DNA of 64,000 nt from Rhynchopus sp. YZ270_cl-10 (lineage: Eukaryota; Euglenozoa; Diplonemea; Diplonemida; Diplonemidae), in contig OZ037863.1 of NCBI GenBank assembly GCA_964035575.1, positions 1,094,001-1,158,000 of the forward strand, given 5' to 3'. Below the pieces are notes generated by a model that was not told the origin of the DNA, did no database searches, and saw nothing but the letters and a program-made list of their open reading frames with translations. Every line of letters starts with the position of its first letter. Position 1 is the stretch's first letter. The position numbers and the translations under genes are program-made. This document shows, piece after piece, positions 15,349-38,657 of this stretch.

Positions 15349-18300
15349 ATGGGTGTCAAGGCGGACGCTGATAAGTCGCGAACATGCGACTACATTGCGG
15401 CCAACCTGATACCACGTGAGATCGAGCTGGCTCTGTCCGGGCTTTTCAAGGACATGCCTGAGGTGCCCCTGGTGTGGCTTGCACAGTACTTCTACGCGCG
15501 CTGCCAGGACCTGCAGTTGCCCTGCTCACTGCCGGGCTCGCCTGCCACTGCCTCAGCCTCTTCTGCATCTTCTTCCCACGAAAGCCCTGCACAGCATCCA
15601 CCTAGCCCCACTGCACCGTGCAGCCTCTACGAACGCATGGGCGGCGTGATGGCGGTGACTCGCGTCATCGATATGTTCTTTTTGCGTATTGAGAACGACG
15701 TGCGTGTTGCGTTTGTGTTGAATGACACAAATATCGATATTGTGAAGAAGACAATGGTGACGATGCTGAGTGCAGAGATTGGTTCGCTTGGGCTGCCGCA
15801 GGACACGCGGCTGCCGACGGTGGGCACGAAGCTGCCGCTCCCCTTGTCGTCGGTGTCGACGCTTGCCTCCCATCTGCGTGCCTGCATGAACGACCTCGGC
15901 TACACGCCTGCAGAGGTCGGCCCCTTCGTCACAGCCTTCATCCAGCTATACTCCCCCGCCAAGCGCTCCTCCAGCGTCACCTGGGTGCAGCCCCACGAAG
16001 CCCCCCTCCCCCAAGAGCGCAGGGTGTCCAAGCCCGAAGCAGACGTTCCCAAAGTGGAAGACGTCGAAGAGGTGGTGGTCAAGAAGACGCTGTTCGAACG
16101 TCTTGGTGGTGCACCTGCTGTTGAGGCGACTGTAGACAAGTTCTACGAGAAGGTTGTGAACGACGACCGTGTGAAGTCCTTCTTCAAGACCGTGGACATG
16201 CGCAAGCAGCGTCAGAAGCAGAAGTCCTTCCTGACCTACGCCTTTGGAGGACCGAACAACTACACCTCCAAGAACATGCGTGACGGACACAGACACATGG
16301 TGCGTGACCAGGGACTGAACGACATGCACTTCGACACCATTGTTGAGCTTCTTGCAGGAACCCTGAAGGAACTTGACATCCCAGACTCTGACATTGCTCA
16401 GGTTGGCGCAATCGCAGAGAGTGTTCGTGACGATGTTCTGTGCAAGGGTGAAGGACTTGAGAAGAAGGAAAAGACACTGTTTGAGCGTCTTGGTGGTGAA
16501 TCTGCTGTTGAGGCGACTGTTGACAGGTTCTACGAGAAGGTTGTGAACGACGACCGTGTGAAGTCCTTCTTCAAGACTGTGGACATGCAGAAGCAACGTC
16601 AGAAGCAGAAGTCCTTCCTGACCTACGCCTTTGGAGGACCGAACAACTACACATCCAAGAACATGCGTGACGGACACAGACACATGGTGCGTGACCAGGG
16701 TCTCAACGACATGCACTTCGACAGAATTGTTGAACTTCTTACTTTAACACTTGCTGAGCTTGGTGTACACCAGTCTGACATTGCTGAGGTCACTAAGATC
16801 GCAGAGAGTGTTCGTGACGACGTTCTGTGCAGGGATGAGGGACTTGAGAGGCCGCTTTTTGAGCGTCTTGGCGGTGCACCTGCTGTGGAGGCGACTGTGG
16901 ATAAGTTTTATGCGAAGGTGATTGACGATGACAGGATCAAATCCTTCTTCACTGCCACGGACATGCGCCGCCAACGCCGCCACCAGAGGACCTTCCTTAC
17001 CTTTGCCTTTGGCGGGCCAAACTCCTACAATGGACGCAACATGCGCGACGCACATCGCCGCATCGTTCTAGAAAAAGGCCTCAGCGACACACACTTTGAC
17101 ATTGTCCTACAACTTCTCATTTGCACCTTGAAAGAGCTCGGTGTAGGCGACCACGACGTTGCCGCCGTTACTACCATAGTCGAAAGCATTCGCGACGACG
17201 TCCTCTGCAGAGGGGAAGTACACAAGAAGAAGAAGCTCTTTGAACGCATCGGAGGAGACGAAGCACTGGACAAGGCTGTACGACACTTTTACACAAAGGT
17301 GCTCGCTGACAGATCGGTCGCCCCTTTCTTTGATGGCGTCGATATGGATAAACAACGGCAAAAACAGAAACAGTTTTTGGCCTTCGTCTTTGGAGGACCT
17401 GCCGCATACAGTGCGAAGGGCATGCGCGATGGACACCGCCATTTGGTGCGAGACCAGGGGCTGAATGACAGCCACTTTGACACGATCCTGCGCTACCTGA
17501 CTGAGGCGCTGAAGGAGATGGGTGTATCGGAGCATGATGTGGCTGAGGTCAGCCGTATTGCCGAGAGTGTACGCGAAGACGTTCTGTGCAAAGGTGAAGG
17601 CATTGTGTACGTCGGCTCCCCGCGCGACAGCCTCTACGAACGCATTGGCGGTGCCATCGCTGTCGACATCGCAGTAGACAAATTCTACGCCAGAGTCCTC
17701 GCAGACGACCGCATCAAATCCTTCTTCCTCAACGTCAATATGCGGACACAACGTCAAAAGCAAAAATCTTTCCTGACCTACGCCTTTGGAGGACCCAACC
17801 ACTACAGCGCCAAAAACATGCGTGACGGACACAGATCCATGGTACGCGACCAGGGACTCAACGACATGCACTTCGACATAATCCAAAATTTGTTATCCGA
17901 CACGCTTCGTGATTTGGGAGTTACAGAGGACGATGTGGCGGATGTGAACAGATTCACTGAAAGCATGCGGGACGACGTTCTATGCAAAGGAGAGCACGAA
18001 AACATTGAATCCTTATACGTCCGTATGGGGGGAGAAGTTGCGATGCAGGCTGTCACCGAAGAATTTTACGCTAAGGTCATGCGGGATGCCCGCATCTTCC
18101 GCTTCTTCGACCGCGTAGACATGACCAAACAGCACCATCTGCAGAAGGAGTTCCTCACCTGGGCGACCGGAGGGCCAGTAAAATACGATACACAACGCCT
18201 CCGGGACCAACACCGCCATCTCGTTCGCGACCATGGGATGAACGAAACTCATTTTGACACATTTGTAGAACTCCTGGCAGGCACCCTGCAGGAGCAAGGT

Positions 18301-18756
18301 GTAGGCGATGAAGATATTGCAAATGTTGCAGACGTTCTCTTCAGTGTCCGCGACGATGTGCTCAGTACCGGTGAAGTCGCCCCTAGAAAGCTCTTCGAAA
18401 GGATTGGAGGCCACGCCGCAGTAGAAATTGCGGTTGTAAAATTCTATCATAAAATCCTTGCTGAGCCGACAGTGGCGCCTTTCTTTAAGGGGATCGATAT
18501 GGCCGTGCAGCACCAAAAGCAGAAGTCATTCTTAAGCTTTGCCTTTGGCGGTCCCAACATTTATACCGGAACCAATATGCGCGATGGACACAGACGGATG
18601 GTGCGTGAGATGGGCCTGTCTGATTACCACTTCGACAAAGTGGTATCGATTTTGTGTGCAACCCTCACAGACATGGACGTACATGCAGCAGATATCGCCG
18701 AAGTGGTGGCCATTACCGAATCCGTACGTAATGACATTCTCTGCAAGGGGGAATAA
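15349..18756 (+). CDS. Polymeric truncated hemoglobin 1 (docking motif, globin-like domain, seven heme globins)
   Basis: This encodes about 1135 residues from the ATG reading MGVKADADKS; the frame is open further upstream only through the CCACCT tract. Residues about 22-58 (IELALSGLFKDMPEVPLVWL then AQYFYAR) fit the RIIa/Dpy-30 docking helix pattern. A Ser/Pro-rich linker leads to a globin-like domain (YERMGGVMAVTRVIDMFF) with no proximal histidine. Seven group I truncated globins follow from base 16090. Each keeps Tyr B10 (FY), Phe CD1 (FF), Gln E7 and Gln E11 (as in MRKQRQKQK) and the proximal His F8 (MRDGHR or equivalent). Domains 1-2 are nearly identical to the repeats of the other three genes; domains 3-7 have diverged (for example FFTATDMRRQRRHQ and FFDRVDMTKQHHLQ). 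Linkers are short (CKGEGLEKKE). There is no signal peptide and no intron in the coding part. Group I globins bind O2 or NO; the exact role here is unknown. Confidence 0.9.
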   Translation: MGVKADADKSRTCDYIAANLIPREIELALSGLFKDMPEVPLVWLAQYFYARCQDLQLPCSLPGSPATASASSASSSHESPAQHPPSPTAPCSLYERMGGVMAVTRVIDMFFLRIENDVRVAFVLNDTNIDIVKKTMVTMLSAEIGSLGLPQDTRLPTVGTKLPLPLSSVSTLASHLRACMNDLGYTPAEVGPFVTAFIQLYSPAKRSSSVTWVQPHEAPLPQERRVSKPEADVPKVEDVEEVVVKKTLFERLGGAPAVEATVDKFYEKVVNDDRVKSFFKTVDMRKQRQKQKSFLTYAFGGPNNYTSKNMRDGHRHMVRDQGLNDMHFDTIVELLAGTLKELDIPDSDIAQVGAIAESVRDDVLCKGEGLEKKEKTLFERLGGESAVEATVDRFYEKVVNDDRVKSFFKTVDMQKQRQKQKSFLTYAFGGPNNYTSKNMRDGHRHMVRDQGLNDMHFDRIVELLTLTLAELGVHQSDIAEVTKIAESVRDDVLCRDEGLERPLFERLGGAPAVEATVDKFYAKVIDDDRIKSFFTATDMRRQRRHQRTFLTFAFGGPNSYNGRNMRDAHRRIVLEKGLSDTHFDIVLQLLICTLKELGVGDHDVAAVTTIVESIRDDVLCRGEVHKKKKLFERIGGDEALDKAVRHFYTKVLADRSVAPFFDGVDMDKQRQKQKQFLAFVFGGPAAYSAKGMRDGHRHLVRDQGLNDSHFDTILRYLTEALKEMGVSEHDVAEVSRIAESVREDVLCKGEGIVYVGSPRDSLYERIGGAIAVDIAVDKFYARVLADDRIKSFFLNVNMRTQRQKQKSFLTYAFGGPNHYSAKNMRDGHRSMVRDQGLNDMHFDIIQNLLSDTLRDLGVTEDDVADVNRFTESMRDDVLCKGEHENIESLYVRMGGEVAMQAVTEEFYAKVMRDARIFRFFDRVDMTKQHHLQKEFLTWATGGPVKYDTQRLRDQHRHLVRDHGMNETHFDTFVELLAGTLQEQGVGDEDIANVADVLFSVRDDVLSTGEVAPRKLFERIGGHAAVEIAVVKFYHKILAEPTVAPFFKGIDMAVQHQKQKSFLSFAFGGPNIYTGTNMRDGHRRMVREMGLSDYHFDKVVSILCATLTDMDVHAADIAEVVAITESVRNDILCKGE

Positions 18757-18797
18757 GGGCGTGAAATGGACGACGTCCATTCAATAAAAGAAAGAAC

Positions 18798-18862
18798 AGT
18801 GAAGATTGCACAACTGTGGCAACACAACCGAGGCAACTGCACTACAATAATTTGTCAAAATA
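18798..18862 (+). repeat. Family H element in the 3' flank of globin gene 1
   Basis: CAGTGAAG and CTGCACT close a hairpin containing TGTGGCAACACA and ACCGAGGC, followed by ACAATAATTTGTCAAAA. It lies 42 bp after the stop codon, close to a possible AATAAA polyadenylation signal. Confidence 0.6.
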
Positions 18863-19201
18863 AAAGAAATGATAATCAAAACAACGTCAAAAAAAAAGAG
18901 AGAGAAAGAAAAATATAGTATGAGAGGACAGGAACCATCGTTAGAACTGTCCTGGAGTGTAACAAATGAAGCAGAAAACAGGTCTAAACGACTGCTATTT
19001 CTGAAAGGGGTGGGGGGTCGGCTAGCTCCAAAAAAAAAAGTAATTTTTTTGTAAAGGGGTGATGGGGGGGGTGGTAGGAAAATGGGTGGGGGGTCTGTGT
19101 TGTCTCAATCTGGTTTATGTTTCTTGTTCTGGATGCCTTTTCTGTGAGCGTCCGTTTTTTTTTTCCCCTCCTTCTTTTGCTTCACCTTCTCTTTTGTGAA
19201 A

Positions 19202-19232
19202 GGTGAGCCTAGCGCCACGGCTTAGGTTTGTC
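19202..19232 (+). repeat. Stem type B relative with a changed loop
   Basis: GGTGAGCCTAGC pairs with GCTTAGGTTTGTC over GCCACG. The stem matches type B but the GNRA loop is not kept. Confidence 0.45.
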
Positions 19233-20189
19233 TTATGATTCGCCCCCCTCCTCTCCTCCCCATTCTTTTACGTCGCAAATAAAGTAAGAAGATACTACAA
19301 CAATAACTATTTGTATATTCTTGTGTCCTCCAATATATTTCCATTTGAACAGCACAAACATGCGGCCCAAAACCTAATATCATGCTTGTCTCGAACCTGG
19401 CTAGTTCGACAAAGGAACCTGGTAAATTCCATCTCTGATTCAAGGACCCTTTATTGGAATCACTGAAACGCAAATAACGGTTGTTGTCATGCTTTAAGGT
19501 TTGTGCGCCTCGTTACTTTTTAGTAGGAGCACCATAAACATAACGAATTGTGTGAAAAACACCTCATCATACGACACGTTTCCCATAAATTGTGAAAACT
19601 GTCTGCCCACAGGTTGGCGTGCTACGATACCTGTACACAAAAGCAAAAAGAACATGAAATTCCTGCTGCTGTTTTTTCGTCATTGTAACCAATAAAATTG
19701 CTTTCACATAAAAAGCTTTTTATTGTATCCTACCTTTTCCCCCCCCTTTTTATTTTTTAGCCCTTGCTCCTTCTGATGAGCGCGGTCGAAGGGCTTTTTC
19801 CTGGTCAGGGAGCAGACCGCTGAAACCAGAATTTTTTATTTTGACATTTATTTTGAAAAACAAGGTTATTTTGACTTTTTCCCCCCTTTTTTTTTTTTTT
19901 TTTTTTTTCTTTTTTCGAAAAAGCAATGAAAGTTCCCGTACAACCACTGCGACAGAGTAAGCCGGAAACTACATTAAAGTTCGCACATCGCTTTGGTTAA
20001 GGATCTAAAAAAGCTAAACAAACACAAACACAAAATAGCAAAAACAAAGAGTACAAACATAACAACAAACATTTTCAAACTCCCCATTCTTTTTTGTCGG
20101 GAAGTGATCGTGGTTGCTGAAAAGTACAAGTAATATTGTGTAAACAGCGGCGGGGTGTGTTTTGTGAAAGGGGCAAATTTGACTTTGGT

Positions 20190-20356
20190 AATACCGTATT
20201 CGTACGGTACGTAAAAAAAAAAAAAACAACCGAGGCAAACTACACTACTCCAACAATTTATCAAAAAAAAATTATCGGAAAAAAGGTCGAACTTCCAGAA
20301 AAATCCTGAAAAGGTCGAACATTTTTACGGTCGATAATTTGTATGAATACGGTAAT
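20190..20356. mobile_element. Small element with imperfect inverted ends
   Basis: ATACCGTATTCGTAC at the left is matched by GTATGAATACGGTAAT at the right. Inside are a family H 3' part and twin AGGTCGAAC motifs. A related sequence, inverted relative to this one, is at 54939-55025. Confidence 0.5.
20227..20270 (+). repeat. Family H 3' half
   Basis: ACCGAGGCAAACTACACTAC then TCCAACAATTTATCAAAA, with the left arm missing. It lies inside the small element 20190-20356. Confidence 0.5.
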
Positions 20357-21116
20357 AGTAAAAAAATATCCAAAAAAACGACTCACTCACTCACTCTCTC
20401 TCTCTCCCCTACGCCCCAGTTTCCTTTGGCTTTCTCAGAAAAGAAGCCACTTTTCTGTAAGATGTGTGTGCAACGATGGGACATTCATGTCGCGTTTTCT
20501 ATTTATTGTTTGAGGTGTTGTGTGAATGACACATTCGTCTTTGTATCTGATCAATCCCGAAATGATGCGTGCGACCTTGCTGGTTAAAAAAGGCTGTCTG
20601 TGCCCCCTAAGTGGCCAGGGAGAGGGGAGGTGCTCACATAATGTGTCAACCCGCTCACCGAGTAAAAGAAGCACCAGGATCGCAAAGCCCCGGCAGATTA
20701 CACAGAACAATGTGTCGCCAGGGCGAGTAACAAAGCAAAGCAAATAAACACCTCTGCACTTTACAGATTAATGTCGTGTTTTCAAAGGTTTTGTCTTTTC
20801 TTTTTTTTCTTTTTATGCTTTTATTCTTTTGTTAGTTTTTCTTGACACAGGAAGTTACTTCGTCGACAATACAAAGAAAAGAAATGGTTTGGTCTGGTTT
20901 GTTTTTCCCCCCCTCCCCATCTTTATTCATTCCCCTTCTTCAGTGCCCCCCTGGGTTCGCATTTGACAAATTCACTATTTTTTTTTCTTTGTGTGCTGCA
21001 TCCTTTCGTGTGGCGTTATTTTTGCGAGAGGTAACTAAGCACAAAAGATTCCATACATAGGTTCCTCTGAGCGACCTTTGCTTTACTTTTTGATTTTGAT
21101 TTTTTTTTTATTTCAT

Positions 21117-21228
21117 TTTTCACGCACACTACTTTGTGAGCGGAAAGTTTCGCGTCGTTCGCTCACCCGTGTGGAAGCGTCAACGCATCAAACAACTAGG
21201 GGGTGGGGGAACGACAAGTGACACTTTT
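21117..21228 (+). repeat. Family F repeat (short copy)
   Basis: ACGCACACTACTTTGTGAGC then GGAAAGTTTCGCGTCGTTCG and GTGGAAGCGTCAACGCATCA and GGGAACGACAAGTGACAC. Longer copies are at 23938-24105 and 47339-47500. Confidence 0.75.
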
Positions 21229-21358
21229 TTTCAGTATCTGCGTCTGCCTGCACTCTGTTAGTGTCGTCTAGCTAACAATAGAGAATTTCTGGGCAAGGCG
21301 CCGGCTCACGAAATTCTTCGGGATAACCTCAGGTGCATGAAAATTGCGTGTGATCTGG

Positions 21359-21400
21359 GGTGAGGAAGCGTTCCAACTTTTCAACCTCTTCCCCTATTTA
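21359..21400 (+). repeat. Family G element
   Basis: GGGTGAGGAAGCGTTCCAAC then TTTTCAACCTCTTCCCC, with the small palindrome GGAAGCGTTCC. A second copy lies in the cullin intron at 43291-43330. Confidence 0.6.
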
Positions 21401-21509
21401 CCTTTCACGCCTTTTTTACCCTCCCCCGTTTTAGAATCAACAGAGAGTGTACGTTAAGATTTTTACCCCGAAATTGAACGATTGTGCACCCTTTGATGCA
21501 AAGAGAAGA

Positions 21510-21566
21510 GTGTGGATCTTTGTGCAGGTGGGCAACTACACGACCCCAACAGTTTATCAAAGAAAA
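21510..21566 (+). repeat. Family H element
   Basis: GTGTGG and CTACAC close a hairpin over a GC-rich loop, followed by GACCCCAACAGTTTATCAAA. Confidence 0.55.
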
Positions 21567-22370
21567 TAATTCGTCTCTTATTTTCAATTGTGCACATTCT
21601 GATGTCTGTGCACGAGACGTATATTTCATCAGTGCGCTGCACCGAAGAAACGATGAAGCGTTTACACTTCTTTTTCATTGTTTGCTGTTATTCTCTACCC
21701 CCTTTTTTTTTTGCTTTTTTTGATCCCTTCTGCGTTGCCGAACAACAGCAGAAACAAAAGCAAAACTTTTTTTTATCAGATGTAAACCACGAAATGGATG
21801 GAGCTGGGCTTTTGTGCCAGACTGCCACCGGTACTTTATTTTTATGCGACTGTGTCCACCGATGGTGAAGTTCTTTTTCTCTCTCTTTTTTTTTTTCACT
21901 TTCAACCTTCAACTTTCTCTCGTTTATTTTCCAACCTATTTCTCCTTCGAGCGTAGCAAAGCGTACCAAAACAAGAGCATCTTTTCTCTTCAATCGTGAT
22001 ACAATATGTTGTGAACCCTAAAATGTTCGAAACATCGGAGGAGTTAAAACACCAAAAAAAAATTTGCAATTTCAAAAACCCAAGGAGAATTTTACCCCCC
22101 CCTCTGACGGTTCTTGGATCACAGCGAGCACGCCCCCCCGGAATGTCGACACTACAACCAACCGTCGCATAGTTTATAATTCCAAAGGTTTGGGGTATTG
22201 GTAAAAAGCTGATAAATCCCTATTTTTCTCCGAACCAGAGAGAGTGAAATCCCCAGGGCAACGCTTCTTTCAGACTACCAAAAAAAGCAAAAAAATATAA
22301 CAGTCCAAAAAGCTTGGCGTCCAAAATAAGTTTGCAACTGAGTTGCTGAAGCAGCCTTTTACTTCTTTCC

Positions 22371-22430
22371 TCAGTGCCCTGCGTCCGCCGATGAACGGTG
22401 CGGCGTTTGCACTTTTCAACTTCTTTCTTC
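22371..22430 (+). repeat. Family D element, long-loop form
   Basis: GTGCCCTGCGTCCGCCGATG then AACGGTGCGGCGTTTGCAC and TTTTCAACTTCTTTCTTC. It shares its loop (GTCCGCCGATGAACGGTG) with the copy at 57086. Confidence 0.6.
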
Positions 22431-22764
22431 TGTAGTCCATCAACAATGATCACCCCCCCTTATTTTTTTTTGTAGCAGTTTTTTTAAAAAGAGGAGACGA
22501 CGCTGGTGGACAAAACTCCATCTTTCGATTGAAAATATTAACTTAATCATTCTGTCGCAGATGTCAACCTCAAAAATGGATGTAGCACCGCATGGCTGAC
22601 GGTCCACCTAGTGTACCGGTTATACTGCTTTTATTTGCTCGTCGCTGTCCGTTCTGGAAAGGTAAACCAGAGGAACGCATTCTCTGATGAGAGTGTCTTT
22701 TTTTTGTCTCATGTACAAAGAAGAAAACAGCGATGACCATTCCTACAGGGGAGGAGCTTGGGGG

Positions 22765-24653: not shown

Positions 24654-27600
24654 ATGACTTCGCCTGTGAGCAACGCTGAGTACACAGCTCAGAAGAGCGT
24701 CAACGCAGAGATCGAGCTTGCCCTCGGTGAGATGTTCAAGGTCCGACCCGATGAGCCTGTGCCCTGGATGGCAGAGTACTTCGTGGAACGCTCTGCAGCG
24801 CTGAACCTGCCCTGCAGAGTTGCGACGTCGCTGTCCGCAAGAACCACGTTCGAGATCCTCGGTGGTGTTGCTGCAGTGACACGCGCAGTGGACGTCACCT
24901 TCCTGCGCGCTATCTCAGATGTACGCGTCGCACATCTTCTCAACGGCGTAAAGGTGGACGACATCAAGTCTGCAACTGTGGCCGCCCTCTCCAAGGCTGT
25001 TGGCGCCACAGCGGACGCACGTCTGCCGCAGGAAGGAGCACTTCTCTCACACTCTGATGAGTCTGGTGAGATTTTTGCTGCACACCTGCGTCAGTCGCTT
25101 GTGGACCTTGGCTACGCCACACATGAGGTGGACGTCACCGTTGCTGCCTTCCTTTCGCTTGGCAAAGAAAAGAGTCTGTTCGAGCGTCTTGGTGGTGCAC
25201 CTGCTGTTGATGTTGCTGTTGACAAGTTCTACGAGAAGGTTGTGAACGACGACCGTGTGAAGTCCTTCTTCAAGACCGTGGACATGCGCAAGCAGCGTCA
25301 GAAGCAGAAGTCCTTCCTGACCTACGCCTTTGGAGGACCGAACAACTACACATCCAAGAACATGCGTGACGGACACAGGTACATGGTGCGTGACCAGGGT
25401 CTGAACGACATGCACTTCGACACCATTGTTGAGCTTCTTGCAGGAACCCTGAAGGAGCTTGGCATCCCAGACTCTGACATTGCTCAGGTTGGTGCAATCG
25501 CAGAGAGTGTTCGTGACGATGTTCTGTGCAGAGGTGAAGGACTTGAGAAGAAGGAACAGACACTGTTCGAGCGTCTTGGTGGTGCACCTGCTGTTGATAT
25601 TGCTGTGGACAAGTTCTACGAGAAGGTTGTGAACGATGACCGTGTGAAGTCCTTCTTCAAGACTGTGGACATGCGCAAGCAGCGTCAGAAGCAGAAGTCC
25701 TTCCTGACCTACGCCTTTGGAGGACCGAACAACTACACTTCGAAGAACATGCGTGACGGACACAGGTACATGGTGCGTGACCAAGGACTGAACGACATGC
25801 ACTTCGACACCATTGTTGAACTTCTTGCAGGAACCCTGAAGGAACTTGGCATCCCAGACTCTGACATTGCTCAGGTTGGCGCAATCGCAGAGAGTGTTCG
25901 TGACGATGTTCTGTGCAGAGGTGAAGGACTTGAGAAGAAGGAACAGACACTCTTTGAGCGTCTTGGTGGTGCACCTGCTGTTGATGTTGCTGTGGACAAG
26001 TTCTACGAGAAGGTTGTGAACGATGACCGTGTGAAGTCCTTCTTCAAGACTGTGGACATGCGTAAGCAGCGTCAGAAGCAGAAGTCCTTCCTGACCTACG
26101 CCTTTGGAGGACCGAACAACTACACCTCGAAGAACATGCGTGACGGACACAGGTACATGGTGCGTGACCAGGGACTGAACGACATGCACTTCGACACCAT
26201 TGTTGAGCTGCTTGCAGGAACCCTGAAGGAACTTGGCATCCCAGACTCTGACATCGCGCAGGTGGGCGCGATTGCAGAGAGTGTTCGTGACGACGTTCTG
26301 TGCAAGGGTGAGGGACTTGAGAAGAAGGAACAGACACTGTTCGAGCGTCTTGGTGGTGCACCTGCTGTTGATGTTGCTGTGGACAAGTTCTACGAGAAGG
26401 TTGTGAACGATGACCGTGTGAAGTCCTTCTTCAAGACCGTGGACATGCGCAAGCAACGTCAGAAGCAGAAGTCCTTCCTGACCTACGCCTTTGGAGGACC
26501 GAACAACTACACATCCAAGAACATGCGTGATGGACACAGGTACATGGTGCGTGACCAGGGACTGAACGACATGCACTTCGACACCATTGTTGAGCTTCTT
26601 GCAGGAACCCTGAAGGAGCTTGGCATCCCAGACTCTGACATTGCTCAGGTTGGCGCAATCGCAGAGAGTGTTCGTGACGATGTTCTGTGCAAGGGAGAGG
26701 GACTTGAGAAGAAGGAACAGACACTCTTTGAGCGTCTTGGTGGTGCACCTGCTGTTGATGTTGCTGTGGACAAGTTCTACGAGAAGGTTGTGAACGATGA
26801 CCGTGTGAAGTCCTTCTTCAAGACTGTGGACATGCGCAAACAACGTCAGAAGCAGAAGTCCTTCCTGACCTACGCCTTTGGAGGACCGAACAACTACACA
26901 TCCAAGAACATGCGTGACGGACACAGGTACATGGTGCGTGACCAGGGACTGAACGACATGCACTTCGACACCATTGTTGAGCTCCTTGCAGGAACCCTGA
27001 AGGAGCTTGACATCCCAGACTCTGACATTGCTCAGGTTGGCGCAATCGCAGAGAGTGTTCGTGACGATGTTCTGTGCAGAGGTGAGGGACTTGAGAAGAA
27101 GGAACAGACACTCTTCGAACGTCTTGGTGGTGCACCTGCTGTGGATGTTGCTGTTGACAAGTTCTACGAGAAGGTTGTGAACGACGACCGTGTGAAGTCC
27201 TTCTTCAAGACCGTGGACATGCGTAAGCAGCGTCAGAAGCAGAAGTCCTTCCTGACCTACGCCTTTGGAGGACCGAACAACTACACCTCGAAAAACATGC
27301 GTGACGGACACAGGTACATGGTGCGTGACCAGGGACTGAACGACATGCACTTCGACACCATTGTTGAACTTCTTGCAGGAACCCTGAAGGAGCTTGACAT
27401 CCCAGACTCTGACATTGCTCAGGTTGGCGCAATCGCAGAGAGTGTTCGTGACGACGTTCTGTGCAAGGGTGAGGGATTTGACGTCGTTAAATCGCCTAAG
27501 GCTGCTACCGCCAAGAAGGCAACGAAGAAGGTGGTGAAGAAGGCACCGACAAAGACGACGAAGGCGGCCTCACCCTCTGCCAAGTCTGCTGCCAAGGCCA

Positions 27601-27698
27601 CGACGAAGAGCACCGCAAAGACGTCGACGAAATGTGCAGCTAAACCTGCCGCAAAAGCCGCTAAAACCGTCTCGAAGAAGGCAACAGAGAAGAATTAA
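24654..27698 (+). CDS. Polymeric truncated hemoglobin 2 (six heme globins, lysine/alanine-rich tail)
   Basis: 1014 residues from an ATG reading MTSPVSNAEY. The docking motif EIELALGEMFKVRPDEPVPW then MAEYFVER (about 22-50) is the clearest RIIa/Dpy-30 match of the four. A heme-less globin-like domain follows (TTFEILGGVAAVTRAVDVTF, about 65-170). Six globin repeats of 129 residues begin at base 25176 and are almost identical to each other. Each has Tyr B10, Phe CD1, Gln E7, Gln E11 and His F8, and ends SVRDDVLC(K/R)GEG. The last about 70 residues (AKKATKKVVKKAPTKTTKA and onward) resemble the basic tail of histone H1 and could bind acidic tubulin tails, RNA or DNA (inference). No intron is seen. 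It differs from gene 3 mainly in repeat number and tail. Confidence 0.92.
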   Translation: MTSPVSNAEYTAQKSVNAEIELALGEMFKVRPDEPVPWMAEYFVERSAALNLPCRVATSLSARTTFEILGGVAAVTRAVDVTFLRAISDVRVAHLLNGVKVDDIKSATVAALSKAVGATADARLPQEGALLSHSDESGEIFAAHLRQSLVDLGYATHEVDVTVAAFLSLGKEKSLFERLGGAPAVDVAVDKFYEKVVNDDRVKSFFKTVDMRKQRQKQKSFLTYAFGGPNNYTSKNMRDGHRYMVRDQGLNDMHFDTIVELLAGTLKELGIPDSDIAQVGAIAESVRDDVLCRGEGLEKKEQTLFERLGGAPAVDIAVDKFYEKVVNDDRVKSFFKTVDMRKQRQKQKSFLTYAFGGPNNYTSKNMRDGHRYMVRDQGLNDMHFDTIVELLAGTLKELGIPDSDIAQVGAIAESVRDDVLCRGEGLEKKEQTLFERLGGAPAVDVAVDKFYEKVVNDDRVKSFFKTVDMRKQRQKQKSFLTYAFGGPNNYTSKNMRDGHRYMVRDQGLNDMHFDTIVELLAGTLKELGIPDSDIAQVGAIAESVRDDVLCKGEGLEKKEQTLFERLGGAPAVDVAVDKFYEKVVNDDRVKSFFKTVDMRKQRQKQKSFLTYAFGGPNNYTSKNMRDGHRYMVRDQGLNDMHFDTIVELLAGTLKELGIPDSDIAQVGAIAESVRDDVLCKGEGLEKKEQTLFERLGGAPAVDVAVDKFYEKVVNDDRVKSFFKTVDMRKQRQKQKSFLTYAFGGPNNYTSKNMRDGHRYMVRDQGLNDMHFDTIVELLAGTLKELDIPDSDIAQVGAIAESVRDDVLCRGEGLEKKEQTLFERLGGAPAVDVAVDKFYEKVVNDDRVKSFFKTVDMRKQRQKQKSFLTYAFGGPNNYTSKNMRDGHRYMVRDQGLNDMHFDTIVELLAGTLKELDIPDSDIAQVGAIAESVRDDVLCKGEGFDVVKSPKAATAKKATKKVVKKAPTKTTKAASPSAKSAAKATTKSTAKTSTKCAAKPAAKAAKTVSKKATEKN
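25176..27476 (+). repeat. 387 bp coding repeat array, six units
   Basis: Six direct repeats of 387 bp, one globin domain each, differ mostly at scattered silent sites. This is the pattern of recent unequal exchange or gene conversion. Confidence 0.95.
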
Positions 27699-30179: not shown

Positions 30180-30745
30180 GCGTTAGCGAGGTTGCAAAAT
30201 GATGTGATATTCACTAACCTCGCCACATAGCTACCACATGCTGCAGAGAGCGTCTCGTTGCAGATCGCCTCGTCGATGGCCTCCTTCACAGGTGGAAGGA
30301 GAACACGGTTCGAGAGAGGGGTTTGCAGTGCGGTGTGTGTGATGGTCTATAGTCCAGTTCTGTGCGCCGCCTGGCCATGGGGACTTCAAGAAGATTTCGT
30401 TATCGAAATTGAGAGCATGTGCACTCAGCATATCCTCCCCCCACTACGTAGATTGCGCCCCAACAGATCGACAATGTCTGCTGCCTCGTGGTCAGACATG
30501 ATTCCACGGTCTACTTGTTTATGAACCGCTCGTTGTAGCTGCAGAGCCTTGCATTGCCCCGTCCCCGATGTGATGACATCGATGAACATATTAAAGACCA
30601 AGACCTTCTTTGCATCGTTGGGGTGTCATACGGACACATTCACCACAGAGAACGAACAGCCATTCTTGGCGGCAGTCCCACCGTTATGGGGCACCATATT
30701 ATGGTGTCTATTGTTCCCGACGTATAGGTGTACACTGACTCTCGC
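30180..30745 (-). pseudogene. Decayed protein-coding trace of unknown family
   Basis: On the minus strand several coding-like segments follow in order: LYVGNNRHHNMVPHN, then KKVLVFNMFIDVITSG and ALQLQRAVHKQVDRGIMSDH, then VKEAIDEAICNETLSAACGS. The stretch is more GC-rich than its surroundings, as the real genes are. No single open frame spans it, so it is broken or cut by unrecognised introns. The protein family is unknown to me. It lies just upstream of globin gene 3. Confidence 0.4.
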
Positions 30746-30993
30746 TGGATAGTTCCTCATAACGATGTTGCATTTATTTAATAGTAATACACGGATACTG
30801 CTAGATCTGGCCAGATCTGGGAAAAAGAGCTGTGAATCTGCGAGTTCATTTTTCTTTAGCGTTTATCTAAATTCAAATGCAACAGCAGTTGCAGCGGCGG
30901 AGGACTGTGATGCTTACCACCACACACCAATCACCTCCTTCACATCAGCTAGTTATACTACCCATACCCCATACCCAAACCAACAAGCAAAAT

Positions 30994-33900
30994 ATGTCTT
31001 CGACAAGAGACCTCATTGCCATCGCAAAGGAGCGCACCACAAAGTACTCCGACTCCAACGACCTCACCCACGAGATCGAGCTCGCTCTCGGGGAGCTCTT
31101 CAAGACCATGCCCGACGCACCCGTGCCGTGGCTTGCAGAGTACTTCGTGGAACGCTCTGCAGCGCTGAACCTGCCCTGCAGAGTTGCGACGTCGCTGTCC
31201 GCAAGAACCACGTTCGAGATCCTCGGTGGTGTTGCTGCAGTTACACGCGCAGTGGACGTCACCTTCCTGCGCGCTATCTCAGATGTGCGTGTCGCACATC
31301 TTCTCAACGGCACCAAGGTCGACGACATCAAGTCTGCAACTGTGGCCGCCCTCTCCAAGGCTGTTGGCGCCACAGCGGACGCACGTCTGCCGCAGGAAGG
31401 AGCACTTCTCTCACACTCTGATGAGTCTGGTGAGATTTTTGCTGCACACCTGCGTCACTCGCTTGTGGACCTTGGCTACGCCACACATGAGGTGGACGTC
31501 ACCGTTGCTGCCTTCCTTTCGCTTGGCAAAGAAAAGAGTCTGTTCGAGCGTCTTGGTGGTGCACCTGCTGTTGATGTTGCTGTTGACAAGTTCTACGAGA
31601 AGGTTGTGAACGACGACCGTGTGAAGTCCTTCTTCAAGACCGTGGACATGCGTAAGCAGCGTCAGAAGCAGAAGTCCTTCCTGACCTACGCCTTTGGAGG
31701 ACCGAACAACTACACATCCAAGAACATGCGTGACGGACACAGGTACATGGTGCGTGACCAGGGTCTGAACGACATGCACTTCGACACCATTGTTGAGCTT
31801 CTTGCAGGAACCCTGAAGGAGCTTGGCATCCCAGACTCTGACATTGCTCAGGTTGGCGCAATCGCAGAGAGTGTTCGTGACGATGTTCTGTGCAGAGGTG
31901 AAGGACTTGAGAAGAAGGAACAGACACTCTTCGAACGTCTTGGTGGTGCACCTGCTGTGGATGTTGCTGTGGACAAGTTCTACGAGAAGGTTGTGAACGA
32001 CGACCGTGTGAAGTCCTTCTTCAAGACTGTGGACATGCGCAAGCAGCGTCAGAAGCAGAAGTCCTTCCTGACCTACGCCTTTGGAGGACCGAACAACTAC
32101 ACCTCCAAGAACATGCGTGACGGACACAGGTACATGGTGCGTGACCAGGGACTGAACGACATGCACTTCGACACCATTGTTGAGCTTCTTGCAGGAACCC
32201 TGAAGGAACTTGGCATCCCAGACTCTGACATTGCTCAGGTTGGTGCAATCGCAGAGAGTGTTCGTGACGATGTTTTGTGCAAGGGTGAGGGACTTGAGAA
32301 GAAGGAACAGACACTGTTCGAGCGTCTTGGTGGTGCACCTGCTGTTGACGTTGCTGTGGACAAGTTCTACGAGAAGGTTGTGAACGATGACCGTGTGAAG
32401 TCCTTCTTCAAGACTGTTGACATGCGCAAGCAGCGTCAGAAGCAGAAGTCCTTCCTGACCTACGCCTTTGGTGGACCGAACAACTACACATCTAAGAACA
32501 TGCGTGACGGACACAGGTACATGGTGCGTGACCAGGGACTGAACGACATGCACTTCGACACCATTGTTGAGCTTCTTGCAGGAACCCTGAAGGAGCTTGG
32601 CATCCCAGACTCTGACATTGCTCAGGTTGGCGCAATCGCAGAGAGTGTGCGTGACGATGTTTTGTGCAAGGGTGAGGGACTTGAGAAGAAGGAACAGACA
32701 CTGTTCGAACGTCTTGGTGGTGCACCTGCTGTTGATGTTGCTGTTGACAAGTTCTACGAGAAGGTTGTGAACGACGACCGTGTGAAGTCCTTCTTCAAGA
32801 CCGTGGACATGCGCAAGCAACGTCAGAAGCAGAAGTCTTTCCTGACCTACGCCTTTGGAGGACCGAACAACTACACATCCAAGAACATGCGTGACGGACA
32901 CAGGTACATGGTGCGTGACCAAGGACTCAACGACATGCACTTCGACACCATTGTTGAGCTTCTTGCAGGAACCCTGAAGGAGCTTGGCATCCCAGACTCT
33001 GACATTGCTCAGGTTGGCGCAATCGCAGAGAGTGTGCGTGACGATGTTTTGTGCAAGGGTGAGGGACTTGAGAAGAAGGAACAGACACTGTTCGAACGTC
33101 TTGGTGGTGCACCTGCTGTTGATGTTGCTGTTGACAAGTTCTACGAGAAGGTTGTGAACGACGACCGTGTGAAGTCCTTCTTCAAGACCGTGGACATGCG
33201 CAAGCAACGTCAGAAGCAGAAGTCTTTCCTGACCTACGCCTTTGGAGGACCGAACAACTACACCTCCAAGAACATGCGTGACGGACACAGGTACATGGTG
33301 CGTGACCAGGGATTGAACGACATGCACTTCGACACCATTGTCGAACTTCTTGCAGGAACCCTGAAGGAGCTTGGCATCCCAGACTCTGACATTGCTCAGG
33401 TTGGTGCAATCGCAGAGAGTGTTCGTGACGACGTTCTGTGCAAGGGAGAGGGACTTGAGAAGAAGGAAAAGACACTCTTTGAACGTCTTGGTGGTGCACC
33501 TGCTGTTGATGTTGCTGTGGACAAGTTCTACGAGAAGGTTGTGAACGATGACCGTGTGAAGTCCTTCTTCAAGACTGTGGACATGCGCAAGCAGCGTCAG
33601 AAGCAGAAGTCCTTCCTGACCTACGCCTTTGGAGGACCGAACAACTACACCTCGAAGAACATGCGTGACGGACACAGGTACATGGTCCGTGACCAAGGAC
33701 TGAACGACATGCACTTCGACACCATTGTTGAGCTTCTTGCAGGAACCCTGAAGGAACTTGGCATCCCAGACTCTGACATTGCTCAGGTTGGCGCAATCGC
33801 AGAGAGTGTTCGTGACGACGTTCTGTGCAAGGGAGAGGGACTTGAGAAGAAGGAACGGACACTCTTTGAGCGTCTTGGTGGTGCACCTGCTGTTGATGTT

Positions 33901-34698
33901 GCTGTGGACAAGTTCTACGAGAAGGTTGTGAACGACGACCGTGTGAAGTCCTTCTTCAAGACTGTGGACATGCGCAAGCAACGTCAGAAGCAGAAGTCCT
34001 TCCTGACCTACGCCTTTGGAGGACCGAACAACTACACATCCAAGAACATGCGTGACGGACACAGGTACATGGTGCGTGACCAAGGACTCAACGACATGCA
34101 CTTCGACACCATTGTTGAGCTCCTTGCAGGAACCCTGAAGGAACTTGGCATCCCAGACTCTGACATTGCTCAGGTTGGCGCAATCGCAGAGAGTGTTCGT
34201 GACGATGTTTTGTGCAAGGGTGAGGGACTTGAGAAGAAGGAACAGACACTCTTCGAGCGTCTTGGTGGTGCACCTGCTGTTGATGTTGCTGTGGACAAGT
34301 TCTACGAGAAGGTTGTGAACGACGACCGTGTGAAGTCCTTCTTCAAGACTGTTGACATGCGCAAGCAGCGTCAGAAGCAGAAGTCCTTCCTGACCTACGC
34401 CTTTGGAGGACCGAACAACTACACATCCAAGAACATGCGTGACGGACACAGGTACATGGTGCGTGACCAGGGATTGAACGACATGCACTTCGACACCATT
34501 GTCGAACTTCTTGCAGGAACCCTGAAGGAGCTTGGCATCCCAGACTCTGACATTGCTCAGGTTGGCGCAATCGCAGAGAGTGTTCGTGACGACGTTCTGT
34601 GCAAGGGTGAGGGCTTTGGAGACGCCAAGCCTAAGGCGAATGTGAAGCACACGGCTAAGAAGGTAGTGCGCAAGGTTCCTGCGAAGAAATCGAAGTAG
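30994..34698 (+). CDS. Polymeric truncated hemoglobin 3 (eight heme globins, basic tail)
   Basis: 1234 residues from the ATG reading MSSTRDLIAIAKERTTKY; the frame is open for 39 codons upstream, but this start matches the N-terminus of gene 4. The docking motif EIELALGELFKTMPDAPVPW then LAEYFVER is at about 29-57. The heme-less globin-like domain follows, then eight 129-residue globins from base 31540 with Tyr B10, Phe CD1, Gln E7, Gln E11 and His F8 in every copy. Linkers vary only as KKEQ, KKEK or KKER. The tail (GDAKPKANVKHTAKKVVRKV and onward) is short and basic. It is the longest array of the cluster. The subject is an intron-free, cytosolic-type chain with no signal peptide. It would carry up to eight hemes (inference from conserved ligands). 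Confidence 0.92.
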   Translation: MSSTRDLIAIAKERTTKYSDSNDLTHEIELALGELFKTMPDAPVPWLAEYFVERSAALNLPCRVATSLSARTTFEILGGVAAVTRAVDVTFLRAISDVRVAHLLNGTKVDDIKSATVAALSKAVGATADARLPQEGALLSHSDESGEIFAAHLRHSLVDLGYATHEVDVTVAAFLSLGKEKSLFERLGGAPAVDVAVDKFYEKVVNDDRVKSFFKTVDMRKQRQKQKSFLTYAFGGPNNYTSKNMRDGHRYMVRDQGLNDMHFDTIVELLAGTLKELGIPDSDIAQVGAIAESVRDDVLCRGEGLEKKEQTLFERLGGAPAVDVAVDKFYEKVVNDDRVKSFFKTVDMRKQRQKQKSFLTYAFGGPNNYTSKNMRDGHRYMVRDQGLNDMHFDTIVELLAGTLKELGIPDSDIAQVGAIAESVRDDVLCKGEGLEKKEQTLFERLGGAPAVDVAVDKFYEKVVNDDRVKSFFKTVDMRKQRQKQKSFLTYAFGGPNNYTSKNMRDGHRYMVRDQGLNDMHFDTIVELLAGTLKELGIPDSDIAQVGAIAESVRDDVLCKGEGLEKKEQTLFERLGGAPAVDVAVDKFYEKVVNDDRVKSFFKTVDMRKQRQKQKSFLTYAFGGPNNYTSKNMRDGHRYMVRDQGLNDMHFDTIVELLAGTLKELGIPDSDIAQVGAIAESVRDDVLCKGEGLEKKEQTLFERLGGAPAVDVAVDKFYEKVVNDDRVKSFFKTVDMRKQRQKQKSFLTYAFGGPNNYTSKNMRDGHRYMVRDQGLNDMHFDTIVELLAGTLKELGIPDSDIAQVGAIAESVRDDVLCKGEGLEKKEKTLFERLGGAPAVDVAVDKFYEKVVNDDRVKSFFKTVDMRKQRQKQKSFLTYAFGGPNNYTSKNMRDGHRYMVRDQGLNDMHFDTIVELLAGTLKELGIPDSDIAQVGAIAESVRDDVLCKGEGLEKKERTLFERLGGAPAVDVAVDKFYEKVVNDDRVKSFFKTVDMRKQRQKQKSFLTYAFGGPNNYTSKNMRDGHRYMVRDQGLNDMHFDTIVELLAGTLKELGIPDSDIAQVGAIAESVRDDVLCKGEGLEKKEQTLFERLGGAPAVDVAVDKFYEKVVNDDRVKSFFKTVDMRKQRQKQKSFLTYAFGGPNNYTSKNMRDGHRYMVRDQGLNDMHFDTIVELLAGTLKELGIPDSDIAQVGAIAESVRDDVLCKGEGFGDAKPKANVKHTAKKVVRKVPAKKSK
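31540..34614 (+). repeat. 387 bp coding repeat array, eight units
   Basis: Eight direct repeats of 387 bp, near identical to each other and to the repeats of globin genes 2 and 4. Confidence 0.95.
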
Positions 34699-36602
34699 GC
34701 AGTTTTTGTGGTTCTTGTTTGTTAGAAGACCAATATTTTATCAGTTGCTTGTCTTATCTCTACGCCTCCGTCTGTATCTACCTTTAGAGTAGGGTTTTTC
34801 TCATTTTTTGTACTCGGCTTTTTTTTCCGCTCTATGATTTTTTATTCTGTTGACGTTGCCGAATGGTATACGTAATTTTCAATTTATGTCTATTTTTTCC
34901 GTTTTTCCGTTTTTTCGTTTTTCCGTTTGGAGTGCTCTTTCTCGTTCATTGCTGTTCTTGTTTATTCATTTGTTATTTTTTCCCACTGTGATTGTCAATG
35001 TCACTCTAAAGTTCCCCATCATGCGATCAACGCGTGTTTGGTTGTTTTTTTTTTTTTTTACTTTTTGTTCTGAGAAAGGAGCTCCTTTTTATTTCGTGGA
35101 GGTGGGTCATTCTGGATTGAGGTTGCACTGTGGCCTCATAATATTCCTGAATTAGGAGGGTTATGTACGGAACCGTATTATACCCGTTTTAGTTGTTCGT
35201 GTGGACAGATTATCACCCTCGACAGTCCGCACTCGAAATGAACAATTATTTTTTGAAATATTGTTCACTGATGTGGTCCGTTGGTTGCGTAGTGTGCAGT
35301 CTAATGATCTTGCGCGACGTAACTCTGACCGTACCGGTTCTAGTGTTTATACAGGGCCCTGTTCACATTTCGTTAAAATGTTTTGCTTTCTTGTTCGTAG
35401 GTGCAAGTTTTTTATCCCTAGGTTCAAGTTATTTTTTATTTTCCTTTTCGCTATTTTCCTTCGAAGTAGACCAATGTTTGTCTGCTTTAGTTACGTGGAA
35501 TACCCATTATTTTATTGGTGACAAAGAAAACACTACATATTTCTCAAGACAATATGTTCAAAACACACTACCCACGCCCCCTACTTTTTTTGAACTCTTT
35601 TTCGTGCCCTCGGCAGATTCATGTTTGCGTTTGTCTGCTCCGCTATTCCTTGCAGCATACTGCACGTCTACTGTTGGTAACCAACGATTCCCTGCAATAA
35701 TACCCTGTCGAGCAGGAAGTATTTATGACACTGTGGAAACAAAGCGAGCTTTTCCAATGAACTTCACATTAAGCTTCACCACAGTCATTAGGGGGTTGCT
35801 GGCGGCTTGGGAGACTTCCTCCTTCAGCGAAGTGGCGGTTTCCTTCTCCTTCGGGGTAAGTGAGAGGACAGGACGGGGTGGTTTCTTCGACAGATGCCTA
35901 CCTACACCGTTCCGACAGTGAGGAGGTGAACAAGTGCCTCGACGTCACCGTCTTCTGGGGTCTGTATGCATTTATTAAAAAAAATTACGTCATAACGATC
36001 ACGAGTCTCTTCCGGAACCTCGGACAAATGACGCGTGTTGTGAAATTTGCGACAAAATGTCGCTTTCCCCTCATCCTCCATGCCCCCGCTGAGGCCGCGG
36101 TGCCAGAAGTAGCACGTGGGCATTATGGACCGCATGGTCCATACCAGGTGCCCCGGCAGGTCCCACAAGAGCTTCTGCGCACACTTCTGCAGCAGATTCG
36201 CATTCACGGGTGTGTCGGATTCGTTGTTGATGATCCCCATCTCCATGGCGATCTTGATGATCGCCTCGCGCACTCCCCCCGCCTCCTTCCTGATCTGCCG
36301 GAGGTACATTACCCTGTGGTGTCGTGCCACTTATTGATTGTTCATGAACTCACTTTCGCGTCTAGAACGCTAAATGAGCATGGTATGCTTCGTCGTGCAA
36401 AGCGTGGTCACTTTGTATATCTTTTTCGAATCTGTGCCACTCACCAACGGAACAGTGCTTTCAGTGTCTGCACAGACATCCGCTTGTCGGTTCCTGTACG
36501 TTTGCTGAGCAATAAGACTGTGCAATAGTTCATACCCAAAGTGTGTCAGCAGACGAAGTATCATCAATATCCACCCCAACACCACAGGCCCTTTCACAAC
36601 AT
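34699..36602. other. Intergenic region between globin genes 3 and 4
   Basis: The first kilobase is T-rich with no gene seen. A GC-richer coding trace on the minus strand occupies about 35720-36330 (listed separately). The 5' flank of gene 4 begins after about 36340. Confidence 0.5.
35720..36330 (-). pseudogene. Coding trace of unknown family on the minus strand
   Basis: On the minus strand MYLRQIRKEAGGVREAIIKI, then AMEMGIINNESDTPVNANLL and CAQKLLWDLPGHL, runs for about 140 residues before the composition turns AT-rich; a second segment (KEKETATSLKEEVSQAASNP, then MTVVKLNVKFIGKARF) follows downstream. GTATGG after PGHL may be a donor, so a spliced gene is possible. GC content is gene-like. 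The family is not recognised. Like the trace at 30180-30745 it lies antisense, upstream of a globin gene. Confidence 0.35.
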
Positions 36603-38657
36603 ATGGCTGCTGCAGCGCGTGAACGTACGACACAATACACAGTGCGTACAGGGCTAGCTGATGAAATCGAGCTCGCCCTCGGGGAGCTCTTCAAGACCAT
36701 GCCCGACGCACCCGTGCCGTGGCTTGCAGAGTACTTCGTGGAACGCTCTGCAGCGCTGAACCTGCCCTGCAGAGTTGCGACGTCGCTGTCCGCAAGAACC
36801 ACGTTCGAGATCCTCGGTGGTGTTGCTGCAGTGACACGCGCAGTGGACGTCACCTTCCTGCGCGCTATATCAGACGTACGCGTCGCACATCTTCTCAACG
36901 GCACCAAGGTCGACGACATCAAGTCTGCAACTCTGGCCGCACTCTCCAAGGCTGTTGGCGCCACTGCGGACGCACGTCTGCCGCAGGAAGGAGCACTTCT
37001 CTCACACTCTGATGAGTCTGGTGAGATTTTTGCTGCACACCTGCGTCAGTCGCTTGTGGACCTTGGCTACGCCACACATGAGGTGGACGTCACCGTTGCT
37101 GCCTTCCTTTCGCTTGGCAAAGAAAAGAGTCTGTTCGAACGTCTTGGTGGTGCACCTGCTGTTGATGTTGCTGTTGACAAGTTCTACGAGAAGGTTGTGA
37201 ACGACGACCGTGTGAAGTCCTTCTTCAAGACCGTGGACATGCGCAAGCAGCGTCAGAAGCAGAAGTCCTTCCTGACCTACGCCTTTGGAGGACCGAACAA
37301 CTACACTTCGAAGAACATGCGTGACGGACACAGGTACATGGTGCGTGACCAGGGTCTCAACGATATGCACTTTGACACCATTGTTGAGCTTCTTGCAGGA
37401 ACCCTGAAGGAGCTTGGCATCCCAGACTCTGACATTGCTCAGGTTGGCGCAATCGCAGAGAGTGTTCGTGACGACGTTCTGTGCAGAGGTGAGGGACTTG
37501 AGAAGAAGGAACAGACACTCTTCGAGCGTCTTGGTGGTGCACCTGCTGTGGATGTTGCTGTGGACAAGTTCTACGAGAAGGTTGTGAACGACGACCGTGT
37601 GAAGTCCTTCTTCAAGACCGTGGACATGCGCAAGCAGCGTCAGAAGCAGAAGTCCTTCCTGACCTACGCCTTTGGAGGACCGAACAACTACACATCCAAG
37701 AACATGCGTGACGGACACAGGTACATGGTACGTGACCAAGGACTCAACGACATGCACTTCGACACCATTGTTGAGCTTCTTGCAGGAACCCTGAAGGAAC
37801 TTGGCATCCCAGACTCTGACATTGCTCAGGTTGGCGCAATCGCAGAGAGTGTGCGTGACGATGTTCTGTGCAAGGGTGAGGGACTTGAGAAGAAGGAACA
37901 GACACTCTTCGAGCGTCTTGGTGGTGCACCTGCTGTTGACGTTGCTGTGGACAAGTTCTACGAGAAGGTTGTGAACGACGACCGTGTGAAGTCCTTCTTC
38001 AAGACCGTGGACATGCGCAAGCAGCGTCAGAAGCAGAAGTCCTTCCTGACCTACGCCTTTGGAGGACCGAACAACTACACTTCGAAGAACATGCGTGACG
38101 GACACAGGTACATGGTACGTGACCAGGGTCTGAACGACATGCACTTCGACACCATTGTTGAGCTTCTTGCAGGAACCCTGAAGGAACTTGGCATCCCAGA
38201 CTCTGACATTGCTCAGGTTGGCGCAATCGCAGAGAGTGTTCGTGACGACGTTCTGTGCAGAGGTGAAGGACTTGAGAAGAAGGAACAGACACTCTTCGAG
38301 CGTCTTGGTGGTGCACCTGCTGTGGATGTTGCTGTGGACAAGTTCTACGAGAAGGTTGTGAACGATGACCGTGTGAAGTCCTTCTTCAAGACTGTGGACA
38401 TGCGCAAGCAGCGTCAGAAGCAGAAGTCCTTCCTGACCTACGCCTTTGGAGGACCGAACAACTACACCTCCAAGAACATGCGTGACGGACACAGGTACAT
38501 GGTACGTGACCAAGGACTCAACGACATGCACTTCGACACCATTGTTGAGCTTCTTGCAGGAACCCTGAAGGAGCTTGGCATCCCAGACTCTGACATCGCC
38601 GAAGTGGGCAAGATTGCAGAGAGTGTTCGTGACGACGTTCTGTGCAGAGCTGAATAG
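36603..38657 (+). CDS. Polymeric truncated hemoglobin 4 (four heme globins)
   Basis: 684 residues from the ATG reading MAAAARERTTQYTVRTGL, which aligns with the N-terminus of gene 3; the frame upstream opens only with a GTG. The docking motif EIELALGELFKTMPDAPVPW then LAEYFVER is at about 26-54, the heme-less globin-like domain at about 70-175, and four globins start at base 37131. All keep Tyr B10, Phe CD1, Gln E7, Gln E11 and His F8. The last domain differs at its end (IAEVGKIAESVRDDVLCRAE), like the diverged domains of gene 1, and there is no basic tail. This suggests that terminal units escape the homogenisation acting on inner ones. Confidence 0.91.
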   Translation: MAAAARERTTQYTVRTGLADEIELALGELFKTMPDAPVPWLAEYFVERSAALNLPCRVATSLSARTTFEILGGVAAVTRAVDVTFLRAISDVRVAHLLNGTKVDDIKSATLAALSKAVGATADARLPQEGALLSHSDESGEIFAAHLRQSLVDLGYATHEVDVTVAAFLSLGKEKSLFERLGGAPAVDVAVDKFYEKVVNDDRVKSFFKTVDMRKQRQKQKSFLTYAFGGPNNYTSKNMRDGHRYMVRDQGLNDMHFDTIVELLAGTLKELGIPDSDIAQVGAIAESVRDDVLCRGEGLEKKEQTLFERLGGAPAVDVAVDKFYEKVVNDDRVKSFFKTVDMRKQRQKQKSFLTYAFGGPNNYTSKNMRDGHRYMVRDQGLNDMHFDTIVELLAGTLKELGIPDSDIAQVGAIAESVRDDVLCKGEGLEKKEQTLFERLGGAPAVDVAVDKFYEKVVNDDRVKSFFKTVDMRKQRQKQKSFLTYAFGGPNNYTSKNMRDGHRYMVRDQGLNDMHFDTIVELLAGTLKELGIPDSDIAQVGAIAESVRDDVLCRGEGLEKKEQTLFERLGGAPAVDVAVDKFYEKVVNDDRVKSFFKTVDMRKQRQKQKSFLTYAFGGPNNYTSKNMRDGHRYMVRDQGLNDMHFDTIVELLAGTLKELGIPDSDIAEVGKIAESVRDDVLCRAE
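37131..38654 (+). repeat. 387 bp coding repeat array, four units
   Basis: Four direct 387 bp repeats, one globin domain each, near identical to those in genes 2 and 3. Confidence 0.95.

Follow-up and report, generated by a model that had tools for sequence, protein, structure and literature searches.

A cluster of four diplonemid genes for strings of group I truncated hemoglobins behind a probable docking/dimerization head

A window of 64,000 nt, part of one contig in the genome of the diplonemid Rhynchopus sp. YZ270_cl-10 (152 Mb, 126 contigs), carries a cluster of four genes in which a short helical head and a degenerate globin precede a string of canonical group I truncated hemoglobins. 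The four uninterrupted open frames all lie on the + strand (genes 1-4: 15349-18756, 24654-27698, 30994-34698 and 36603-38657), and their strings hold 7, 6, 8 and 4 canonical globins. An initial annotation of this DNA had already claimed four such genes with these numbers of domains, and the PF01152 profile lists exactly 25; the degenerate globin behind each head, the basic tails of genes 2 and 3 and a fifth gene of the same kind elsewhere in the genome are additions of the present analysis. The architecture is real and well supported, and its known parts are combined in a new way. A docking/dimerization (D/D) domain is the most likely identity of the head. We propose that the proteins are heme polymers addressed to a scaffold, where their most likely role would be the O2-dependent removal of nitric oxide (NO), and we give this reading a probability of about 45%.

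The canonical repeats are predicted to be heme-competent group I truncated hemoglobins. In the profile search with PF01152, which the initial annotation had proposed for the repeats, all 25 window domains and all 14 domains of the fifth gene, on contig C68, pass the curated cut-off of 21 bits. The same search of the genome gave these 39 domains, a count that is a lower bound, and all group I globin domains listed genome-wide (at least 39) sit in the five polymer genes. The pocket residues Tyr B10, Phe CD1, Gln E7, Gln E11 and His F8, previously reported for every canonical domain, are indeed kept in 25 of 25. Lys occupies E10 in 23 of them. The seven divergent globins of gene 1 (PF01152 8.2e-128) span residues 248-1135 (16090-18753) and have Lys at E10 in five units, His in one and Leu in one; E10 is Lys in all six units of gene 2 (25176-27473), all eight of gene 3 (31540-34611) and all four of gene 4 (37131-38651). 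This position is variable in the family; the fifth gene and several homologs have residues there that are neither Lys nor His. Other Pfam families also match the repeats, among them protoglobin, TetR and a restriction enzyme; these were rejected as stacked partial matches of one repeat motif, mostly without any single stretch that passes alone. An NCBIfam scan gave only short spurious matches.

The gene starts are our choice among the in-frame ATGs. The first one was used for gene 2 (24654) and gene 4 (36603); gene 1 has an earlier one at 15004, ahead of a CCTCCA repeat, and gene 3 has others upstream at 30877 and 30910. Lys/Ala-rich basic C-terminal tails, which resemble histone H1-like tails, are found in the cluster only on gene 2 (27474-27695) and gene 3 (34612-34695).

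Comparison of the repeat units gives evidence for selection at the protein level. The 18 units of genes 2-4 encode 6 distinct proteins of 120 residues, and their 153 pairs gave a pooled proportion of synonymous differences (pS) of 0.163 and of nonsynonymous differences (pN) of 0.0048 (pN/pS 0.029). For the seven central units of the gene on contig C68, pN/pS was 0.071. These low ratios indicate that the globin proteins are maintained by selection and are not decaying repeats. Moreover, 48 sites vary among the units of genes 2-4, 39 of them at the third position of a codon (binomial p 1.2e-11), so the coding of the cluster is not due to chance. Mean synonymous divergence (dS) between these units is similar within a gene (0.176-0.195) and between genes (0.176-0.203), as expected under unit exchange among genes 2-4. 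The units of gene 1 are much more diverged from one another than those of genes 2-4, except that its first unit is near the latter (dS 0.18 to one gene-3 unit).

The heads behave differently from the rest of the proteins. Pairwise comparison of the heads of genes 2-4 gave pS of 0.39-0.51 and pN of 0.14-0.22, with a ratio of 0.37-0.57, and the degenerate globins right behind them gave pS of only 0.05-0.07. The heads have escaped homogenization yet remain under constraint, and the globin body apparently stays near-identical across the three genes by gene conversion.

Long antisense frames are also present on the - strand opposite genes 2-4 (25047-27350, 31411-34650 and 37002-38747; 767, 1079 and 581 aa). 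They were ruled out as coding by the variation at sense third positions, which correspond to antisense first positions in gene 3, the one gene for which the codon phase was checked. The repeated codon pattern probably gave rise to these frames as a by-product.

With regard to the head, the initial annotation had named it a helix pair of the RIIa/Dpy-30 type, with EMFKVRPDEPVPWMAEYF as an example, which we located in gene 2. Profile comparison and predicted fold support a domain of the D/D kind, but the Pfam cut-offs were not reached. Dpy-30 (PF05186, cut-off 22 bits) is the best Pfam match of all four window heads, always below the cut-off (12.3, 17.7, 15.9 and 15.1 bits for genes 1-4; E 0.0029 for gene 2), and RIIa (PF02197, cut-off 22.4 bits) was not listed for any of them. 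In genome-wide searches, the globin genes were neither among the places listed for PF05186 at E 0.001 nor among the 15 listed for PF02197 at E 10. One homolog, P0006, scored 24.1 bits against RIIa only as an excised 60-residue piece, the full protein remaining below the cut-off (19.3 bits, E 9.1e-4), and none of the full-length proteins scanned reached a Pfam D/D cut-off.

A profile built from homologs outside the cluster matched the heads of gene 1 (residues 12-59, 15382-15525; 40.0 bits), gene 2 (residues 7-55, 24672-24818; 36.5 bits) and gene 4 (residues 6-57, 36618-36773; 46.7 bits); the head of gene 3 occupies residues 15-63 (31036-31182). When 10,000 shuffled heads were compared with a profile from the out-of-cluster homologs, the best reached 15.5 bits against 44-54 bits for the real heads, and thus the head signal is not chance. 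Searched against PDB sequences, the head family profile placed RI-alpha of protein kinase A (PKA) first at 2.8e-4 and Dpy-30 at 0.011, and hhalign of the profile with Dpy-30 domains of the same genome gave 92% over 45 columns. With the 186-residue N-terminus as query, the best 50 rows of both Foldseek and VIA-align held globins only; because the degenerate globin fills this match list, the head was predicted alone. Its predicted fold is the helix-turn-helix of a D/D protomer, and its 28 Foldseek matches comprise 17 RI-alpha/DPY-30 entries, 10 axonemal or radial-spoke chains and one other, with weak E-values throughout. Profile and fold together suggest PKA RI-alpha rather than Dpy-30 as the nearest relative. 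It is improbable that the head is some other short helical pair outside the D/D superfamily: the sub-cut-off Pfam scores of the window heads and of all full-length proteins scanned, as well as the weak Foldseek E-values, would fit this view, but the PDB profile, hhalign and the predicted fold all point to the superfamily, and RI-alpha, DPY-30 and axonemal chains make up 27 of the 28 structure matches.

Each of the four heads is followed by one degenerate globin that is absent from the PF01152 listing (gene 1, residues 93-206, 15625-15966; gene 2, residues 66-168, 24849-25157; gene 3, residues 74-176, 31213-31521; gene 4, residues 68-170, 36804-37112). By alignment, Tyr B10, Phe CD1 and His F8 are all three absent from all four domains: gene 1 has Phe at B10, Leu at CD1 and Asp in the F8 column, and genes 2 and 4 also have Leu at CD1 and Asp in that column. 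The spans were taken from a first globin profile that included the degenerate domain of gene 1 among its seeds. A profile without this seed matched the four domains with 15.0-24.7 bits over only about 55 residues (residues 93-146 of gene 1, 66-121 of gene 2 and 68-123 of gene 4); these matches stop before F8, and the F8 column was read from a separate alignment. For the corresponding domain of the homolog P0007, the profile alignment places His at F8 and another alignment (A2) places Asp there, and other His residues exist in the degenerate domain of genes 2-4. Loss of heme from these domains is likely, not certain, as judged from the aligned residues.

A protein search with gene 1 retrieved 28 proteins: two of the window's own (P0001 and P0003, excluded from homolog counts), 12 eukaryotic-looking multi-globin proteins (P0002 and P0004-P0014) and 14 that look bacterial by their domains and names (P0015-P0028, judged from the result table). 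P0002 comes from this genome, whose fifth gene on contig C68 encodes 14 globin domains together with the same head. Outside the cluster, six of the 12 multi-globin proteins carry the head (P0002, P0005, P0006, P0007, P0012 and P0014), and the head profile found no match in the remaining six. This set of six had been chosen by eye before the profile was built, and a profile from the four window heads alone recovers five of them. P0013 seems to start inside a globin, and P0007 and P0012 terminate inside one. P0004, P0006, P0008 and P0009, each on a 322053-nt contig, may represent another cluster. As queries, P0014 retrieved four proteins, itself included and none new, and P0005 retrieved itself only.

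The homologs show other kinds of termini. A hydrophobic C-terminal segment is clear in P0010 and weaker in P0008 and P0009, all of which have no D/D head, and it is a possible membrane tail anchor. P0010, annotated as 'Group 1 truncated hemoglobin GlbN' of Diplonema papillatum, is the single eukaryotic homolog with a name in the gene 1 search; it has five tandem group I globins like the window strings, with 54% identity over 56% of gene 1, and differs from them by the lack of a D/D head match and by its hydrophobic end, the candidate anchor. P0011 has five group I units, a weak match to a further 3/3 globin and a C-terminal cytochrome b5 domain; its N-terminus starts with MGC, a possible lipidation site. 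The docking head, the membrane tail and the b5 fusion may be alternative ways to place or power the same type of string.

The new element is the D/D head on a globin string, whereas multidomain truncated hemoglobins themselves have already been described. The earlier statement that no described protein joins this docking motif to a truncated globin polymer agrees with the literature searched: a search for truncated hemoglobin together with Dpy-30 found none, broader searches gave no globin with a D/D head among the matches listed, and the accessible portions of the globin literature on diplonemids, Diplonema and Euglenozoa contained none on such proteins. Likewise, none of six papers shows a D/D-headed globin in the portions available (PMC4439042; PMC8339350; PMC8611851; PMC4870792; PMC4101818; PMC7082302). 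According to the available text of two of these, several 2/2Hb domains on one polypeptide are already known (PMC7082302), and two chimeric proteins of Guillardia theta contain six 3/3 globin domains (PMC4101818). Like the window proteins, multidomain truncated hemoglobins have several truncated hemoglobins per chain, some with fused domains. Such proteins with tandem globin units were reportedly the subject of Hade et al. in 2017; in a comparison based on the title of that work, the window strings differ by the D/D head and degenerate globin that precede them, by the clustering of four genes, the longest of which has 8 canonical units, and by the fifth gene with 14 globin domains.

Single-domain relatives help to read the pocket. 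A gene-3 unit matches Synechocystis cyanoglobin at 1.2e-38 and Chlamydomonas THB1 at 1.2e-28, both of which, unlike the window proteins, are single domains without a docking head. Cyanoglobin has the pocket residues of the window units except at E10, where most window domains share the Lys of THB1. In Chlamydomonas THB1, THB2 and THB4 this Lys provides the sixth ligand of the heme, and THB11 has the Lys yet no ligation (PMC7082302, available text). In the window domains Lys E10 is a candidate ligand. The D/D superfamily (PKA RI-alpha, DPY-30, radial-spoke and central-pair proteins) resembles the window heads in the predicted helix-turn-helix, in a Pro-x-x-Pro motif found in most members and in conserved aromatic positions. 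On the other hand, no globin fusion was found for it, and the available text of PMC8339350 has no words beginning with globin, hemoglobin, haemoglobin or myoglobin.

In the mechanism that we propose, the head would form a D/D dimer, as its predicted fold suggests, and this dimer would in turn hold the amphipathic helix of a scaffold protein, which might be located in the flagellum. The degenerate, probably heme-free globin may act as an adaptor, and the 4-8 group I globins per chain would provide a very high local concentration of heme; a gene-3 dimer would carry 16 hemes, provided that dimers form and every canonical domain is loaded. A pocket with Tyr B10, Gln E7, Gln E11 and mostly Lys E10 is predicted to bind O2 tightly and to need reduction after each turnover, and O2-dependent NO dioxygenation would be its most likely chemistry. 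Our preference for this chemistry rests on the pocket residues, on Lys E10 as in THB1, on the fusion in P0011, whose cytochrome b5 domain is a plausible electron donor, and on the absence of flavohemoglobin from the PF00042 search of the genome. That search gave two matches, both globin-kinase genes, although such six-frame searches may miss intron-split genes, and the RSP3 match in two pieces suggests that introns occur here. RSP3, paraflagellar-rod proteins and Dpy-30 domains above the cut-off are all present in the genome, which counts in favour of the proposal. The paraflagellar-rod proteins had 30 matches; their abundance is a mark of Euglenozoa. One molybdenum oxidoreductase, either nitrate reductase or sulfite oxidase, was also matched. 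Two points weigh against the proposal, namely that the window proteins contain no reductase and that E10 is variable in the family.

Multi-domain hemoglobins of invertebrates hold O2 near its consumer. Similarly, the polymers might, once docked, store or buffer O2 for a flagellate exposed to low oxygen, a possibility that we regard as rather doubtful. Long strings of intact globins and the residues other than Lys and His at E10 in the fifth gene and several homologs would suit such a store. However, a pocket that pairs Tyr B10 and two Gln tends to release O2 very slowly, which is poor for delivery, and Lys at E10 would have to be displaced before O2 binds. D. papillatum survives hypoxia according to the available part of PMC8611851, which is in favour of a store, but the main text of that paper has no words beginning with globin, hemoglobin or haemoglobin and gives no further support.

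It is unlikely, though worth weighing, that the strings are structural or regulatory, with a head that competes with PKA regulatory subunits or radial-spoke proteins for the helices of scaffolds and globins that serve as gas-sensitive spacers. The nearness of the head to RI-alpha, the degenerate globin retained behind each head and the diverged heads on similar bodies in genes 2-4 are consistent with this, but the heme pockets are strict in 25 of 25 domains, more than a spacer requires, and the window proteins have no output domain. A reservoir that stores heme rather than gas ligands is very improbable, since storage would not require B10, E7 and E11, the positions in contact with gas ligands, yet none of the three varies among the 25 domains, and since matches to both ALAD and ferrochelatase are present, even though the group I globin domains listed genome-wide are confined to the five polymer genes. 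The presence of these two enzymes means that the host can probably make heme. The idea of a heme auxotroph, which came from the remark that scant data on D. papillatum had revealed no heme pathway (PMC4870792, in the part available), is weakened by the same matches.

Some other features of the window and genome were noted. A CFAP77-like gene (6780-7880) and a tubulin-tyrosine-ligase family gene (10281-12023) lie upstream of the cluster on the same strand; under polycistronic transcription, neighbouring genes say little on function. Two perfect arrays have units of 8 bases (3679-4125, 55.9 copies) and 7 bases (4768-5422, 93.6 copies), and one repeat occurs in both flanks of the cluster (about 12750-13515 and 40090-40315), its longer pieces being 78-89% identical. 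Two similar genes (57117-58343 and 59954-61273) share near-identical stretches at their starts, and the frame between them (58788-59957) has weak beta-propeller matches. Rfam gave no match and ARAGORN no tRNA within the window. Elsewhere in the genome, L022:1508-2893 (contig C55) and L023:2148-4631 (contig C59) combine a 3/3-type globin, a PH-like domain and a protein kinase, with an additional CAP-Gly domain in L023. They look like globin-coupled kinases from their domains; in L022 the PH match is just under the cut-off and the frame stops inside the kinase.

Finally, the heads of genes 2-4 have drifted apart while the globin body stays near-identical, and for this reason we tentatively consider that one heme-string payload might have several addresses, the diverged heads carrying it to different scaffolds. 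If true, the paralogs would deliver the same multi-heme NO/O2 sink to different scaffolds, for example in the flagellum. A polymer addressed in this manner would be a direct case of a cell siting heme chemistry at a chosen place via a scaffold-docking head, and it would tie the handling of gases to the scaffolds that PKA and axonemal proteins use. We know of no counterpart to a localized gas-handling device of such kind. Diplonemids are highly abundant, and D. papillatum is genetically tractable (PMC8611851, available part). Since the payload is shared and the heads differ, the addressing idea can be put to the test.

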